A stretch of 32,116 nt of DNA from an uncultured Gammaproteobacteria bacterium (GTDB taxonomy: Bacteria; Pseudomonadota; Gammaproteobacteria; Poriferisulfidales; GCA-002705445), in the NCBI GenBank assembly GCA_913042035.1, contig CAJWIN010000008.1:1-32116 (forward strand), written 5' to 3'. Within the stretch, counting starts at the first letter, position 1, and each line of letters starts with the position of its first letter. Made by a program: the position numbers and the translations under genes. Of the stretch, positions 12,442 through 17,863 are shown piece after piece. Below the pieces are notes generated by a model. It was not told where the DNA came from, did not search any database, and was given only the letters and a program-made list of their open reading frames with translations.

Positions 12442-13188
12442 TTATAGCGAAAGTGCATCACTCATTGTATACAAACCTTTATTTTTTTTAGCTATCCATT
12501 TTGAAGCTAAAATTGCGCCCTCTGCAAAAATCTTTCTGTCAAAACTTTTATGATTAATTTCTATAGACTCATTTTCTAAAGTGAACTTAACCATGTGATC
12601 TCCAACTACATTACCTACTCTCAAGCAATGATGGTTAATGTCTTTAAGATTTGATAAATTATTTTTAATAACGTCTTCAAACGCCAAAGACGTTCCAGAT
12701 GGCATATCAACTTTATGCTTATGATGGTGCTCAATTATATCTATATCAGAATTGTCTCCTATAGATGACGTCATTTTTTCAACAAGTTTTAAACATAAGT
12801 TTATTCCTATACTCATATTTGAAGATTTTAGTATAGATATTTCTTTACTCGCCAATTCTATTTCTTTTATTTGGCTATCTGAAAAACCCGTTGTTCCTAT
12901 AATTAATTTCCTGTTATGTCTTATACACTCATCAATTATCTTCATTGAATATTCTGGTCTAGTAAAATCTACGCATACATCGCAATTTAATATTGCGCGG
13001 CTTAAATCCTGAGTGATAATTTGTTGTTCAAAATTTTGTTCAAAATTAGATAAATTTTGACTTATTTTATTTACATCTCTTACAACGCCAGATGACAGTG
13101 TAATATTAGCATTATCTAATGATACTAGTTTTGCTATCTCCATTCCCATTTTTCCTGAAATTCCAGGTACGCAGATGCTTATAGACAT
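12442..13188 (-). CDS. dapB: 4-hydroxy-tetrahydrodipicolinate reductase
   Basis: NAD(P)H-dependent step of the diaminopimelate/lysine pathway, supplying peptidoglycan and protein synthesis. The nucleotide-binding motif is VPGISGKMG at 7-15, GTTGF is at 98-102, and the catalytic/substrate motif EHHHKHKVDMPSGTSLA is at 153-169 (His cluster, K159, SGT phosphate-like site). At 248 residues it is somewhat shorter than E. coli DapB (273) but no motif is missing. First gene of the long minus-strand directon running to secG; dnaJ lies 70 bases upstream, the dnaJ-dapB-carAB order of Pseudomonas. Confidence 0.95.
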   Translation of the reverse strand: MSISICVPGISGKMGMEIAKLVSLDNANITLSSGVVRDVNKISQNLSNFEQNFEQQIITQDLSRAILNCDVCVDFTRPEYSMKIIDECIRHNRKLIIGTTGFSDSQIKEIELASKEISILKSSNMSIGINLCLKLVEKMTSSIGDNSDIDIIEHHHKHKVDMPSGTSLAFEDVIKNNLSNLKDINHHCLRVGNVVGDHMVKFTLENESIEINHKSFDRKIFAEGAILASKWIAKKNKGLYTMSDALSL

Positions 13189-13258: not shown

Positions 13259-14194
13259 CTATTTGAAGAAATTTTTTAAGCCTCCAAGCCAACTTTCTGA
13301 CTTTGGACTATGCTTTTTTTTGCTATTTTTTAATTTATCATCAAAACGCAATAATAAATCTTTTTGTTCGTTTGATAAGTTTACAGGTGTTTCGATTTGA
13401 ACAGAGCATATTAAATCTCCAACACCGCCGCCTCTAACGGATTTAATTCCTTTTCCTTTCAATCTGAACAATCTTCCAGTTTGAGTTCCTACTGGTATAT
13501 TAATCGAAACCATACTGCTTGCTAATGTTGGTATTTCAATCTCAGCACCAAAGGCAGCTTCAGCAAAAGAAATTGGTACATTGCAATATAGGTTATTACC
13601 ATCTCTTTCAAATATTGAGTGTTTTTCTAAAACTACTCTGATGAAAAGATCTCCTGATGGGCCTTGATTGATACCAGGTTCACCTTTGCCAGAAAGCCTT
13701 ATTCGATCACCATTGTCAACGCCGGCAGGAATTGAAACCGATATTTCTTTGTCTTCATTTTTTGTTCTAAATTTTATAACTTTATCTATGCCAAAAGCTG
13801 CTTCTTCAAGAGTTAACTGCATTTGATACTCTAAATCAGCACCTTTATATGCTCGATTTGGATTTCTAGCTCGTCCCCCTCCAAAAATATCACCAAAAAT
13901 ATCCTCGAAAACATCTTCAAATCCAGAAGTATTAAAACCTCCTTGAGAGCGACCACCAAAGCCACCGCCAAAACCACCGCCAAAATCTGCAGTTCCATAC
14001 TGATCATACATAGATTTCTTTTGAGGATCTGAAAGGACGTCGTAAGCTTCTTTTGCTTCTTTAAATTTTGTCTCAGCAGTTTTATCGTTACCGGTTCTGT
14101 CGGGGTGAAATTTCATAGCTTTTTTCTTAAAAGCCTTTTTAATTTCATCACTTGATGCCCCTTTACTAAGACCTAAAATCTCATAGTAATCCAT
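13259..14194 (-). CDS. dnaJ: DnaJ co-chaperone lacking the zinc-finger domain
   Basis: Hsp40 partner of DnaK. The J domain (1-70) has the HPD motif in [10 protein letters not shown]; a Gly/Phe-rich linker follows ([16 protein letters not shown]). The peptide-binding domains (about 120-290) align with classical Dna[10 protein letters not shown], then [58 protein letters not shown]. The C-terminal [16 protein letters not shown] also matches classical DnaJ. The four CxxCxGxG repeats that normally sit between these are completely absent: the chain goes from GIDKVIKF through RTKNEDKEI directly to SVSIPAG. Hence 311 residues instead of ~375. CbpA-type proteins also lack the finger, but the tail and the 21-base gap to dnaK identify this as the dnaJ orthologue. 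Confidence 0.93.
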
Positions 14195-14215: not shown

Positions 14216-16147
14216 TTATTTCTTATCGTTATTAACTTCTTTGTATTCAGCATCAACAACATCTGCGTCATTTTCAGAATTAGAATTTGCATTCTCTGCT
14301 GAAGGTTCTGCATTTTCTTGAGCTTTTGCAGCTTGCTCAGCATACATCATTTCAGCCATTTTTGCTGATGCCTCTGAAAGTTCTTTTATGCATTTCTCGA
14401 TAGAATCTTTGTCTTCTGTTTTCAAAGCTTCTGTAAGCGCTTCATTTTTTTCCTTGATATTTTTTTGATCATCTTCAGTAACTTTATCTCCTAGCTCATC
14501 AAGTGATTTGTTTGTTGCATGAACCAAAGCATCTCCTTGATTTTTTAGAGCAACAAGCTCCTGGAATTTTTTATCTTCTTCCGCATGAAGCTCAGCATCT
14601 TTAACCATTTTTTCAATTTCGTCATCTGATAGCCCACTAGACGATTTAATAATTATAGATTGCTCTTTATTTGTAGCTTTATCTTGAGCTGAGACATTCA
14701 AGATTCCATTTGCATCAATATCAAATGTCACTTCAATCTGTGGCATACCTCTTGGAGCAGGAGGAATATCTGAAAGATTAAATTGACCTAAAGATTTATT
14801 TCCTGAAGCAATATCTCTTTCTCCTTGAAGGACATGAACTGTAACAGCAGTTTGGTTATCTTCAGCTGTTGAAAATGTTTGATTTTGTTTAGTAGGTATA
14901 GTTGAATTTTTTTCTATAAGCTTTGTCATAACTCCACCCATAGTTTCGATGCCTAAGGATAATGGCGTAACGTCTAATAATAGAACATCTGTGACATCTC
15001 CAGCCAAAACTCCACCTTGAATAGCTGCTCCAGCTGCAACAGCTTCGTCTGGATTAACATCTTTTCTTGGTTCTTTCCCAAAATAATCTTTTACAATTTT
15101 TTGAACCAAAGGCATTCTTGTTTGCCCACCAACTAATATAACGTCATCAATATCTTTTTTTGATAATTTGGCATCTTTTAAAGCTATTTCACAAGGAGTT
15201 ATTGTTCTTTTCACTAAATCTTCAACCATTGACTCAAATAAAGCTCTTGTGATTTTCATATTTAAATGTTTTGGCCCACTTGCATCAGCAGTTATGTATG
15301 GAATATTAATATCTGCTTGTTGGCCATTTGATAATTCTATTTTTGCTTTTTCAGAAGCATCCTTAAGTCTTTGTAAAGCTAAAGGATCAGATCTTAAATC
15401 AAAACTTTGTTCTTTTTTAAATTCATCAACTATATGATCAATTAATTTTGAATCAAAATCTTCACCGCCTAATTGAGTGTCGCCATTTGTAGATAAAACT
15501 TCAATTTGATTTTCTCCATCAATATCTGATATATCAATTATAGAAACATCAAATGTACCACCACCTAAGTCGTAGACAGCAATTTTTTTATCCCCTTTCT
15601 TTTGATCAAGACCATAGGCAACAGCAGCAGCTGTTGGTTCATTAATAATTCTTTGTACATTTAGTCCAGCAATTTTTCCCGCATCTTTTGTTGCTTGTCT
15701 TTGAGAATCATTAAAATATGCTGGGACAGTAATAACAGCATCTGTTACTTCAGAACCTAAGTATTCCTCGGCGGTTTTCTTCATTTTCATTAAAACTTTT
15801 GCTGATATTTCTGGTAAAGCCATTTTATTAGAATCAATTTGCACCCAAACATCTCCGTTATCTGCCTCAACTATGTTATAAGGTAAGATAGCTTTATCTT
15901 TTTGTACCTCCTTATCAGAATATTTTCTTCCAATAAATCTTTTAATAGCATAAACAGTTTTTTCCGGGTTTGTAACAGATTGTCTTTTTGCAGACTGGCC
16001 TACTAATGTTTCTGCATCAGTAAAAGCTACAACTGAAGGGGTTGTTCTATCTCCTTCGCTATTTTCAATAATTTTAGGTCTATCACCTTCCATGACAGAC
16101 ACACATGAATTTGTTGTTCCTAAGTCAATACCTATGATTTTACCCAT
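14216..16147 (-). CDS. dnaK: Molecular chaperone DnaK (Hsp70)
   Basis: ATP-driven chaperone working with GrpE and DnaJ. The 643-residue protein has the N-terminal phosphate loop [12 protein letters not shown], the ATPase-domain motifs [31 protein letters not shown] and [13 protein letters not shown], the [18 protein letters not shown] interdomain linker, and the substrate-binding domain. The tail [19 protein letters not shown] is the normal bacterial C terminus after an Ala/Glu/Asn-rich linker. GAGG lies 7 bases before the ATG. A sigma-32-type promoter is 40-68 bases upstream. Typical in every respect. Confidence 0.98.
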
Positions 16148-16218: not shown

Positions 16219-16776
16219 TTATTTACTTTTTTTTGATACTATCACTAGGGCTGGTCTTAAGAGCTTTGATTTTAATTTGTATCCTTTTTGCATGACCTCT
16301 AACACCATATTTTCTTCTATTTCAGACTCTTTAGTGGCCATAGCTTGATGATATTCTGGGTCAAAATCTTCATTTAAAGGATTTATTTCTTCAACCTCAA
16401 GCTTATCAAAAATTTCTTTTGTGGTTTTAAGTAGTAAACTATTTCCTTCTATAAGAGTCTCTAGTTTTAAATTCGGCTCTTCAGATAATTTATTTGCTGC
16501 TTCCAGACTATCCATAATAACTAATAATTCTGAAGATAATTTTTCAGTTGAATATAATTGAGCCTGCTGCAATTGCTTTAAAGTTCGTTTTTGAAAGTTA
16601 TCTAGTTCAGCTTTAGATCTAAGGAGCAAATCGTTTAATTTAACGTTTTCAGCTAATAGTTTTTCTTGGTGATCTTCGTTTTCAACATTACTATCATTAA
16701 TTTCTTCAAGAATATCGTCGCTCTCAAGCTTCTCTGAATCTTGCTCAAAGTTTTCTTTAATTTCTTCTTCTTTCAT
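16219..16776 (-). CDS. grpE: Nucleotide exchange factor GrpE
   Basis: Dimeric exchange factor that releases ADP from DnaK. The 185 residues start with a very acidic, probably disordered segment (KEEEIKENFEQDSEKLESDD), then a long coiled coil (about 35-95, with AELDNFQKRTLKQLQQAQ) and the C-terminal beta domain with NPLNEDFDPEYHQAMA and VMQKGYKLKSKLLRPALVIVSKK, the GrpE signature. AAAGGAA precedes the ATG. It lies 43 bases after hrcA and 71 bases before dnaK, with its own heat-shock promoter. Confidence 0.95.
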   Translation of the reverse strand: MKEEEIKENFEQDSEKLESDDILEEINDSNVENEDHQEKLLAENVKLNDLLLRSKAELDNFQKRTLKQLQQAQLYSTEKLSSELLVIMDSLEAANKLSEEPNLKLETLIEGNSLLLKTTKEIFDKLEVEEINPLNEDFDPEYHQAMATKESEIEENMVLEVMQKGYKLKSKLLRPALVIVSKKSK

Positions 16777-16809: not shown

Positions 16810-16838
16810 TATATAGGGTTTAATCAGAGGATTTCAAG
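16810..16838 (-). promoter_or_regulatory. Sigma-32-type heat-shock promoter for grpE
   Basis: On the minus strand CTTGAAA (16838-16832), a perfect RpoH -35 element lying inside the last codons of hrcA, is followed after 13 bases by CCCTATATA (16818-16810), one mismatch from CCCCATNTA. Expected start of transcription is near 16803, about 27 bases before the grpE ATG. Spacer length is identical to that of the dnaK promoter, which supports both calls. Confidence 0.8.
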
Positions 16839-17863
16839 GCTTCAGTCAATAATTTAGCTGTAATATCGACAATTGGGATAACTCTATCGTACGCCATTCT
16901 TTTAGGACCAATTACACCAAGTACACCCACAACATCATTATCAAATTCATAAGGTGCACTTATAACACTGCAGTCATCTAAAACATTGTATCCTGACTCA
17001 GCCCCTATAAATATTTTTACACCATCTGAAGTTATACTTTTATCTAGCAAATGGAGAATATTATTTTTCTCGCTAAATGCATCAAATAGAGTTTTTAATT
17101 TTTCTATATCAGATAATTCTTTGCAGTTCATTAATCTTGTTTGTCCGCTTACAAAAAGATCATCATTTTTTTTCATGTCATCCGTATCTAAAAAAAGTTT
17201 TTTTCCGAAGGTTATTGCTGAGGACATTATGCTATTCATATCTTTTCTCATTTCATCAAGTTCATTTAATAAAATTTTTCTAACATGATGAATTGATTGT
17301 CCAGATATTATTGCATTAAGATAATTTGATGCTTCTTGTAATTCAGAAGAATTATAACTCTTGTCCAGACTTATAATTTTATTTTCAACATCATTATTTT
17401 TGTTTATTAAAATTGCTAAAATTTTATCGTCACTTAATTTTAAAAAATCTATCTGCTTAAGCTGAATATCATTGTGAGTAGGCAAAGAGATTATGCCAGC
17501 TAACCCTGTTATATTTGATAAAATCTCGTTCGTATTTTTTACAATATTTTTTCTTTCTATGTTTCTTGTTAAGTTTAATTTTAATTTTTTAATAAGCTTG
17601 TTATTAACCGGTTGAACTTTGATCATTTTGTCAACAAACACTCTGTATGCTAGTTCTGTTGGCACTCTTCCCGCTGACTTATGAGGTGAATATATGTATC
17701 CGAGATCTTCTAAGTCTACAAATACATTTCTAATTGTTGCAGAGCTTATACCAATATCTGATGTTTGTGATAATTTTGTTGAGCCAACCGGTTGCCCGTC
17801 GGAAATGAAGCTTTCTATAAGTGCTTTTAAAAGTAATTCTTGTCTCTTATTTAAATTTTCCAT
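16820..17863 (-). CDS. hrcA: Heat-inducible transcription repressor HrcA
   Basis: Winged-helix repressor that in other bacteria binds the CIRCE operator of groESL and dnaK operons and needs GroEL for activity. The 347-residue protein has the N-terminal DNA-binding domain (1-75) with DGQPVGSTKLSQ, SSATIRNVFVDLEDLGYI and SPHKSAGRVPTELAYRVFVD, then the GAF-like and dimerisation regions ending in GVLGVIGPKRMAYDRVIPIVD, the HrcA signature. ATG at 17863. It heads hrcA-grpE-dnaK-dnaJ and is divergent from nadK. No CIRCE (TTAGCACTC-N9-GAGTGCTAA) is seen in the gaps of this locus, so its target is probably elsewhere, for example groESL. Confidence 0.95.
   Translation of the reverse strand: MENLNKRQELLLKALIESFISDGQPVGSTKLSQTSDIGISSATIRNVFVDLEDLGYIYSPHKSAGRVPTELAYRVFVDKMIKVQPVNNKLIKKLKLNLTRNIERKNIVKNTNEILSNITGLAGIISLPTHNDIQLKQIDFLKLSDDKILAILINKNNDVENKIISLDKSYNSSELQEASNYLNAIISGQSIHHVRKILLNELDEMRKDMNSIMSSAITFGKKLFLDTDDMKKNDDLFVSGQTRLMNCKELSDIEKLKTLFDAFSEKNNILHLLDKSITSDGVKIFIGAESGYNVLDDCSVISAPYEFDNDVVGVLGVIGPKRMAYDRVIPIVDITAKLLTEALKSSD

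Follow-up and report, generated by a model that had tools for sequence, protein, structure and literature searches.

Zinc-finger loss from the sole operon DnaJ of a gammaproteobacterial genus and probable exchange of the finger-less allele by homologous recombination

Arguments about the role of the DnaJ zinc finger have so far drawn on engineered mutants and ancient paralogues. A class B J-domain protein is defined by the absence of both the finger and the C-terminal tail (PMC8215388), and repeated loss of the finger from duplicated class A proteins has given rise to such proteins (Domanski and colleagues, PMC12799103). E. coli DnaJ engineered to lack residues 144-195 supports full maximal DnaK refolding, with about 2.5-fold more protein required for the half-maximal rate, and its thiol-reductase activity is lost (PMC4428491). 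The type II DnaJ of Thermus can substitute for E. coli DnaJ in vitro (PMC3727329). Our literature search, whose coverage was incomplete, turned up neither a sole operon DnaJ that had lost its finger nor an exchange of such a form. Herein, we describe a gammaproteobacterial genus in which the operon DnaJ occurs both with and without its finger.

The stretch of DNA analyzed (the window) comprises 32,116 nucleotides of contig CAJWIN010000008.1 from an uncultured marine Gammaproteobacteria bacterium (assembly GCA_913042035.1). Its dnaJ reading frame at 13259-14194, to which the initial annotation gave no strand, lies on the minus strand and encodes a 311-residue DnaJ without a zinc finger, as identified by ORF, Pfam, and NCBIfam. 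The gene order is hrcA (16820-17863), grpE (16219-16776), dnaK (14216-16147, 643 aa), dnaJ, and dapB (12442-13188), with carA and carB next; every one of these genes is on the minus strand. The first three genes were assigned by Pfam/NCBIfam profile matches, and dapB, a conserved downstream neighbor, by such matches and synteny. Pfam recognized only two domains in the window DnaJ. The N-terminal J domain bears the HPD motif (PF00226, residues 2-64; 14003-14194 when counted as residues 1-64), and the DnaJ_C substrate-binding domains have no inserted finger (PF01556, residues 121-270; 13385-13834). Both β-sandwich domains are kept, as judged from PF01556 and a structure model. Alignment with the tails of relatives indicates that a class A-type C-terminal tail of 16 residues is also kept (13262-13309).

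The initial annotation had described an operon-borne DnaJ missing its entire zinc finger. This description was confirmed: the protein reads as quoted, Pfam did not find the zinc-finger domain PF00684 in it, and alignment with congeners leaves a gap at columns 147-211. The gap amounts to 65 residues or 195 bp, is in frame, and takes in all four CxxCxGxG motifs. The deletion point falls between K145 and N146 (13759/13760, minus strand; FRTK/NEDKEIS), where relatives carry the 65 codons, and two cysteines are left in the protein. Around this breakpoint, where direct repeats were considered, the sequences are strongly diverged. The further statement that everything else is that of classical DnaJ was nearly right, but 15 additional columns flanking the deletion are fixed differences.

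The window genome (G000) was assembled to 720 kb and is 73.5% complete; we compared it with ten congeners. The same deletion was found in three of them (G009, G002, and G010), at 84-89% identity over the full protein, while the other seven (G001 and G003-G008) have the full finger and ten cysteines at the same locus. A window genome fragmented into 37 contigs raises the question of an assembly or binning artefact in which the CxxCxGxG repeats collapsed. The junction, however, is codon-precise and identical in four finger-less species-level genomes, with linked fixed substitutions on both sides, and the three others stem from independent projects (a MED781 MAG, an ERR2098401 MAG, and the single-cell genome AG-447-N20). 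Because the same deletion recurs in three further genomes from different projects, a collapsed assembly is very unlikely to be the cause of the missing finger, and we give such an artefact almost no credence. The finger-bearing congeners also include single-cell genomes (AH-287-I11 and AG-390-O20). Pairwise dN/dS is 0.046-0.081 among finger-less DnaJ proteins, similar to the 0.024-0.080 among finger-bearing pairs; the finger-less dnaJ is thus a maintained gene under strong purifying selection and not a decaying one.

A class B-like layout and a class B protein as the best structural match might suggest that a CbpA gene took over the dnaJ slot in the operon. The profiles speak against this: the best NCBIfam family is bacterial DnaJ (PRK10767, 390.9 bits vs a cut-off of 338), and the CbpA profile PRK10266 scores far below its own cut-off (186.2 vs 403). 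In a tree of 66 proteins built with the finger columns left out, the proteins of the genus group together within DnaJ (98), and among them the four finger-less ones are united with support of 100, whereas 17 CbpA-like proteins form their own clade with support of 100. The initial annotation had proposed such a tree of the shared domains, and the protein falls with the DnaJ of its genus rather than with the CbpA-like proteins. The C-terminal tail is likewise of the DnaJ type, and CbpA-like proteins end differently. Judged by profile, tree, and tail, the window protein is a true DnaJ by descent, and a CbpA takeover has next to no chance of being correct.

The annotation had also called this protein the sole DnaJ, and our search bears that out: neither a CbpA nor a second, finger-bearing DnaJ was found in the window genome (73.5% complete) or its relatives. 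Since completeness is 73-84% for the window genome and for several finger-less relatives, the absence of a second DnaJ rests partly on the better congeners. The J proteins of the genus are of three kinds, namely DnaJ, HscB (about 175 residues), and a small J protein of the membrane (about 150 residues). Each genome has one DnaK, and most have HscA. The finger-less DnaJ is apparently the cell's only general DnaJ.

To follow the history of the locus, trees were compared for the four finger-less and seven finger-bearing genomes of the genus. Neighbor genes (hrcA, dapB, carA, carB, and two upstream genes) scatter the finger-less species over three places among the finger-bearing ones. In this tree, G000 is joined to G009; G002 pairs with G004 (99/97) and G010 falls with G001 and G005 (100/100), these last three partners all being finger-bearing. 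Monophyly of the finger-less species is rejected (delta lnL 457, p-AU 2e-45). Unlinked genes agree, ZnuA placing G010 with G001/G005 (100/100) and HscA placing G002 with G004 (95/92). The dnaJ segment around the deletion gives the opposite picture: here the four finger-less species form one clade (100/100), and the groupings of G010 with G001+G005 (p-AU 9e-67) and of G002 with G004 (p-AU 5e-45) are rejected. The initial annotation had assumed a conversion within one lineage; this does not hold, as the finger-less species are interspersed among finger-bearing ones and the allele appears to have moved by recombination.

Sliding-window comparisons located the switch. In G002, the preference for G000/G009 over G004 sets in near dnaK codon 560, is strongest around the deletion, and has turned back by dnaJ codon 280-320, before dapB. 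In G010, the switched identity spans roughly dnaJ codons 40-270. On the window, trees and sliding windows together place the approximate recombined tract, whose history unites the four finger-less species, at 13565-14017 on the minus strand, with the G002 tract reaching back into dnaK to about 14468. Silent positions carry the same local flip. Synonymous (same-amino-acid) codon identity of G002 inside the segment is 0.66 to G000/G009 vs 0.46 to G004, and in carA it is 0.57 vs 0.71. A tree of third positions only still unites the four finger-less species in the segment (84/86). The G010 synonymous signal is weaker (0.59 vs a background of 0.51-0.56), with synonymous sites near saturation. The exchanges are old, with synonymous identities of 0.59-0.71.

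Because the history of the dnaJ segment conflicts with those of neighboring and unlinked genes, we infer that the allele moved between species by homologous recombination. A finger-less allele would have replaced, or been replaced by, a finger-bearing one in the dnaK-dnaJ region. The alternative is two or three independent losses of the finger in the genus, the shared flanking residues being convergent adaptation. The neighbor-gene tree does require three changes, residues beside a lost domain could co-adapt, and a separate loss did occur in another family (G050, described below). Still, the junction is the same in all four finger-less species, and 15 gap-free DnaJ columns outside the finger share no residue between the groups, the highest count of all 330 four/seven splits; together with a shared G/F variant they exceed any of the 329 others. 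Because synonymous and third positions also unite the four species, with flips confined to one segment, segment replacement is favored over convergence, and repeated loss is a distinctly improbable account. The fixed columns beside the deletion may have travelled with the segment, or they may be responses to the absent domain.

A closer competitor is ancient polymorphism: the ancestor of the genus would already have had both forms, which then underwent sorting or repeated exchange, with recombination also restoring a lost finger. The finger-less lineage of G010 branches deeply, at an age close to that of the genus, and the finger-less proteins have S at aligned column 234 and E at column 262, the general gammaproteobacterial state, unlike the finger-bearing congeners. 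Passive sorting without exchange is implausible for species so diverged, and the rooting of the segment does not choose for it: the segment is placed within the family (100/100), with within-genus and sister-lineage origins both compatible (p-AU 0.29). We consider ancient polymorphism possible but would not bet on it; it parts from our preferred explanation only in direction and timing. Our preferred explanation, which we hold to be very probable, is that the sole operon DnaJ lost its finger in one clean in-frame deletion and that the allele was then exchanged between congeners by homologous recombination. Mechanistically, one deletion event would remove the entire finger from dnaJ, and finger-less and finger-bearing versions would subsequently trade places in the dnaK-dnaJ region of congeneric species.

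A broader proposal, offered tentatively and with some doubt, is that the two forms are long-lived interchangeable alleles of one operon slot, that selection keeps both across the genus, and that recombination switches between them when zinc, oxidation, temperature, or proteome conditions vary. If this proposal were true, the class A/class B split would be a segregating trait and not a deep split between paralogues.

The idea that DnaK may have adapted to the altered partner found no support. Across the 4 finger-less and 7 finger-bearing genomes, zero DnaK columns separate the groups, so no DnaK column tracks finger loss; the C-terminal differences in the DnaK of G002 are explained by the exchanged segment. 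Zinc economy had also been suggested; on this reading, a saving of zinc in surface sea water would have been what selected against the finger. For ribosomal proteins, swapping of zinc and non-zinc versions by transfer has been published (PMC3087516), and all four finger-less genomes encode the cysteine-poor, zinc-free type of ribosomal protein L31. The zinc-free type, though, also occurs in four of the six finger-bearing congeners in which L31 was found. Three of the four finger-less genomes encode ZnuA, the fourth being the 73.5%-complete window genome, and one finger-bearing genome lacks it. With no clear association with either marker, zinc economy is an unlikely driver of the loss. Separately, L31 itself alternates between zinc-binding and zinc-free types inside the genus (L187-L198).

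Finger loss from DnaJ is rare outside this genus. A survey covered 370 gammaproteobacterial genomes, all but that of the window with a completeness of at least 90%, and 354 of them scored above the finger cut-off. Among those below it, only in G050 is an intact DnaJ without a finger encoded in a grpE-dnaK-dnaJ-dapB operon. This genome belongs to another family (0.9 Mb, 97% complete); its finger-less DnaJ (L014/L115) is the only J protein detected, and no HscB match was found in it. Two apparent cases were discarded, G012 as a contig end and G043 as a gene split between contigs, and the other genomes below the cut-off yielded no intact operon DnaJ, only CbpA-like or weak J-domain matches. Across the phylum, 244 of 249 genomes were above the cut-off, and the four below it besides the window genome contained no finger-less protein in the place of DnaJ. 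G050 and the genomes with reduced or altered fingers described next are all small, yet small genome size alone does not explain the loss, because genomes of 0.3-0.4 Mb keep the finger whole.

Several further variants were observed during this survey. In G136 and G237 (another family, 1.2 Mb; L127 and L130), DnaJ has only two CxxCxGxG motifs, the middle pair by the look of the sequence. In G181 and G347 (a third family, 1.2-1.3 Mb; L124 and L121), the first CxxCxGxG motif is altered; the segment tree groups the DnaJ of these two genomes with finger-less G050 (88/85), which hints at stepwise erosion there. G537, a two-contig genome of the same class (4.2 Mb, 100% complete), gave no DnaJ match and one weak J match (L200). 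G011 carries dnaK-dnaJ twice, in almost identical form and on separate contigs (L116 and L117); with 6% contamination, it is probably a mixture of two strains. A viral scan returned only distant finger-less J proteins. Marine viral contigs (L201-L206) encode full-length DnaJ-like proteins without a finger, about 290-300 aa long, and five of the six contigs have an ORF of about 750 aa for a ClpA/ClpB-like ATPase within the same 7 kb.

A structure check at the short loop, as the initial annotation had advised, returned a short β hairpin at the deletion. In the model, strands 136-143 and 148-155 form a tight hairpin with a short turn at the finger site; the model has a pTM of 0.50, and the relative positions of its domains carry no meaning. 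The best solved structural match is the finger-less Thermus DnaJ 4j80. The class B-like layout that had been proposed agrees with our results, in that the finger is absent and the J domain and DnaJ_C are present. By its sequence, the protein nevertheless fits neither class A nor class B strictly, as it has no finger but keeps the tail. A lengthened G/F region, a trait of other class B proteins, was considered and dropped, since the lengths overlap (44-48 vs 40-46 residues).

The finger had been called important for DnaJ function, a view that published work tempers: the engineered finger-less E. coli protein needs the higher dose noted above, yet it is still an effective DnaK co-chaperone (PMC4428491). 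Because this construct and the finger-less Thermus DnaJ both work with DnaK, the window protein is expected to be a working co-chaperone with a weaker client grip and no redox activity. Its J domain would still dock on DnaK and trigger ATP hydrolysis, and its two β-sandwich domains would still deliver unfolded clients. Without the finger, client affinity would be somewhat lower and thiol-reductase activity would be gone. Overall, the finger-less DnaJ probably acts as a class B-like DnaK co-chaperone that retains the class A C-terminal tail.

These genomes provide matched pairs of closely related wild bacteria that differ in having or lacking the finger at one locus; the DnaK proteins of the congeners are 88-96% identical to that of the window, and no back-up CbpA was found. 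As a natural experiment, they make the purpose of the finger testable in natural backgrounds. They also suggest that a duplication stage, on which the published model of the class A to class B transition relies, is not needed for the only general DnaJ to lose its finger, and that a core chaperone can switch class by recombination.

In comparison with known systems, the window DnaJ resembles class A (bacterial type I) DnaJ in operon position, J domain, G/F region, two β-sandwich domains, C-terminal tail, and phylogenetic placement, and differs in having no zinc finger at all and 15 fixed substitutions around the deletion. It shares complete finger loss from class A with the Actinobacteria DnaJ 2B and eukaryotic cytonuclear class B proteins (PMC12799103). 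Those proteins lost the finger in duplicates, whereas the present one is the sole operon copy with no visible duplication; the event is limited to a single genus, whose species probably trade the two forms by recombination. The Thermus thermophilus type II DnaJ (4j80, PMC3727329) is likewise finger-less, works with DnaK, and is the best structural match; it differs in forming a DnaK-DnaJ-DafA complex, in its identity of about 36-38%, and in having no class A tail. E. coli CbpA, itself a general DnaK co-chaperone, is also finger-less, but it belongs to a separate clade, has another C-terminus, and is a second J protein beside DnaJ. The engineered E. coli DnaJ (PMC4428491) has essentially the same deletion in the same protein, yet this laboratory construct retains the last CXXC, while the natural version drops all four motifs. 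The nearest analogy for the exchange is ribosomal protein S4, a core gene whose zinc and zinc-free versions are transferred between lineages (PMC3087516). S4 differs in that whole genes were transferred over phyla, with paralogues in some genomes, whereas the dnaJ case is replacement of a segment within a genus. The origin of class B by finger loss is thus already published, from duplicates; what sets the present case apart is the loss in the sole operon copy and its probable exchange as an allele.
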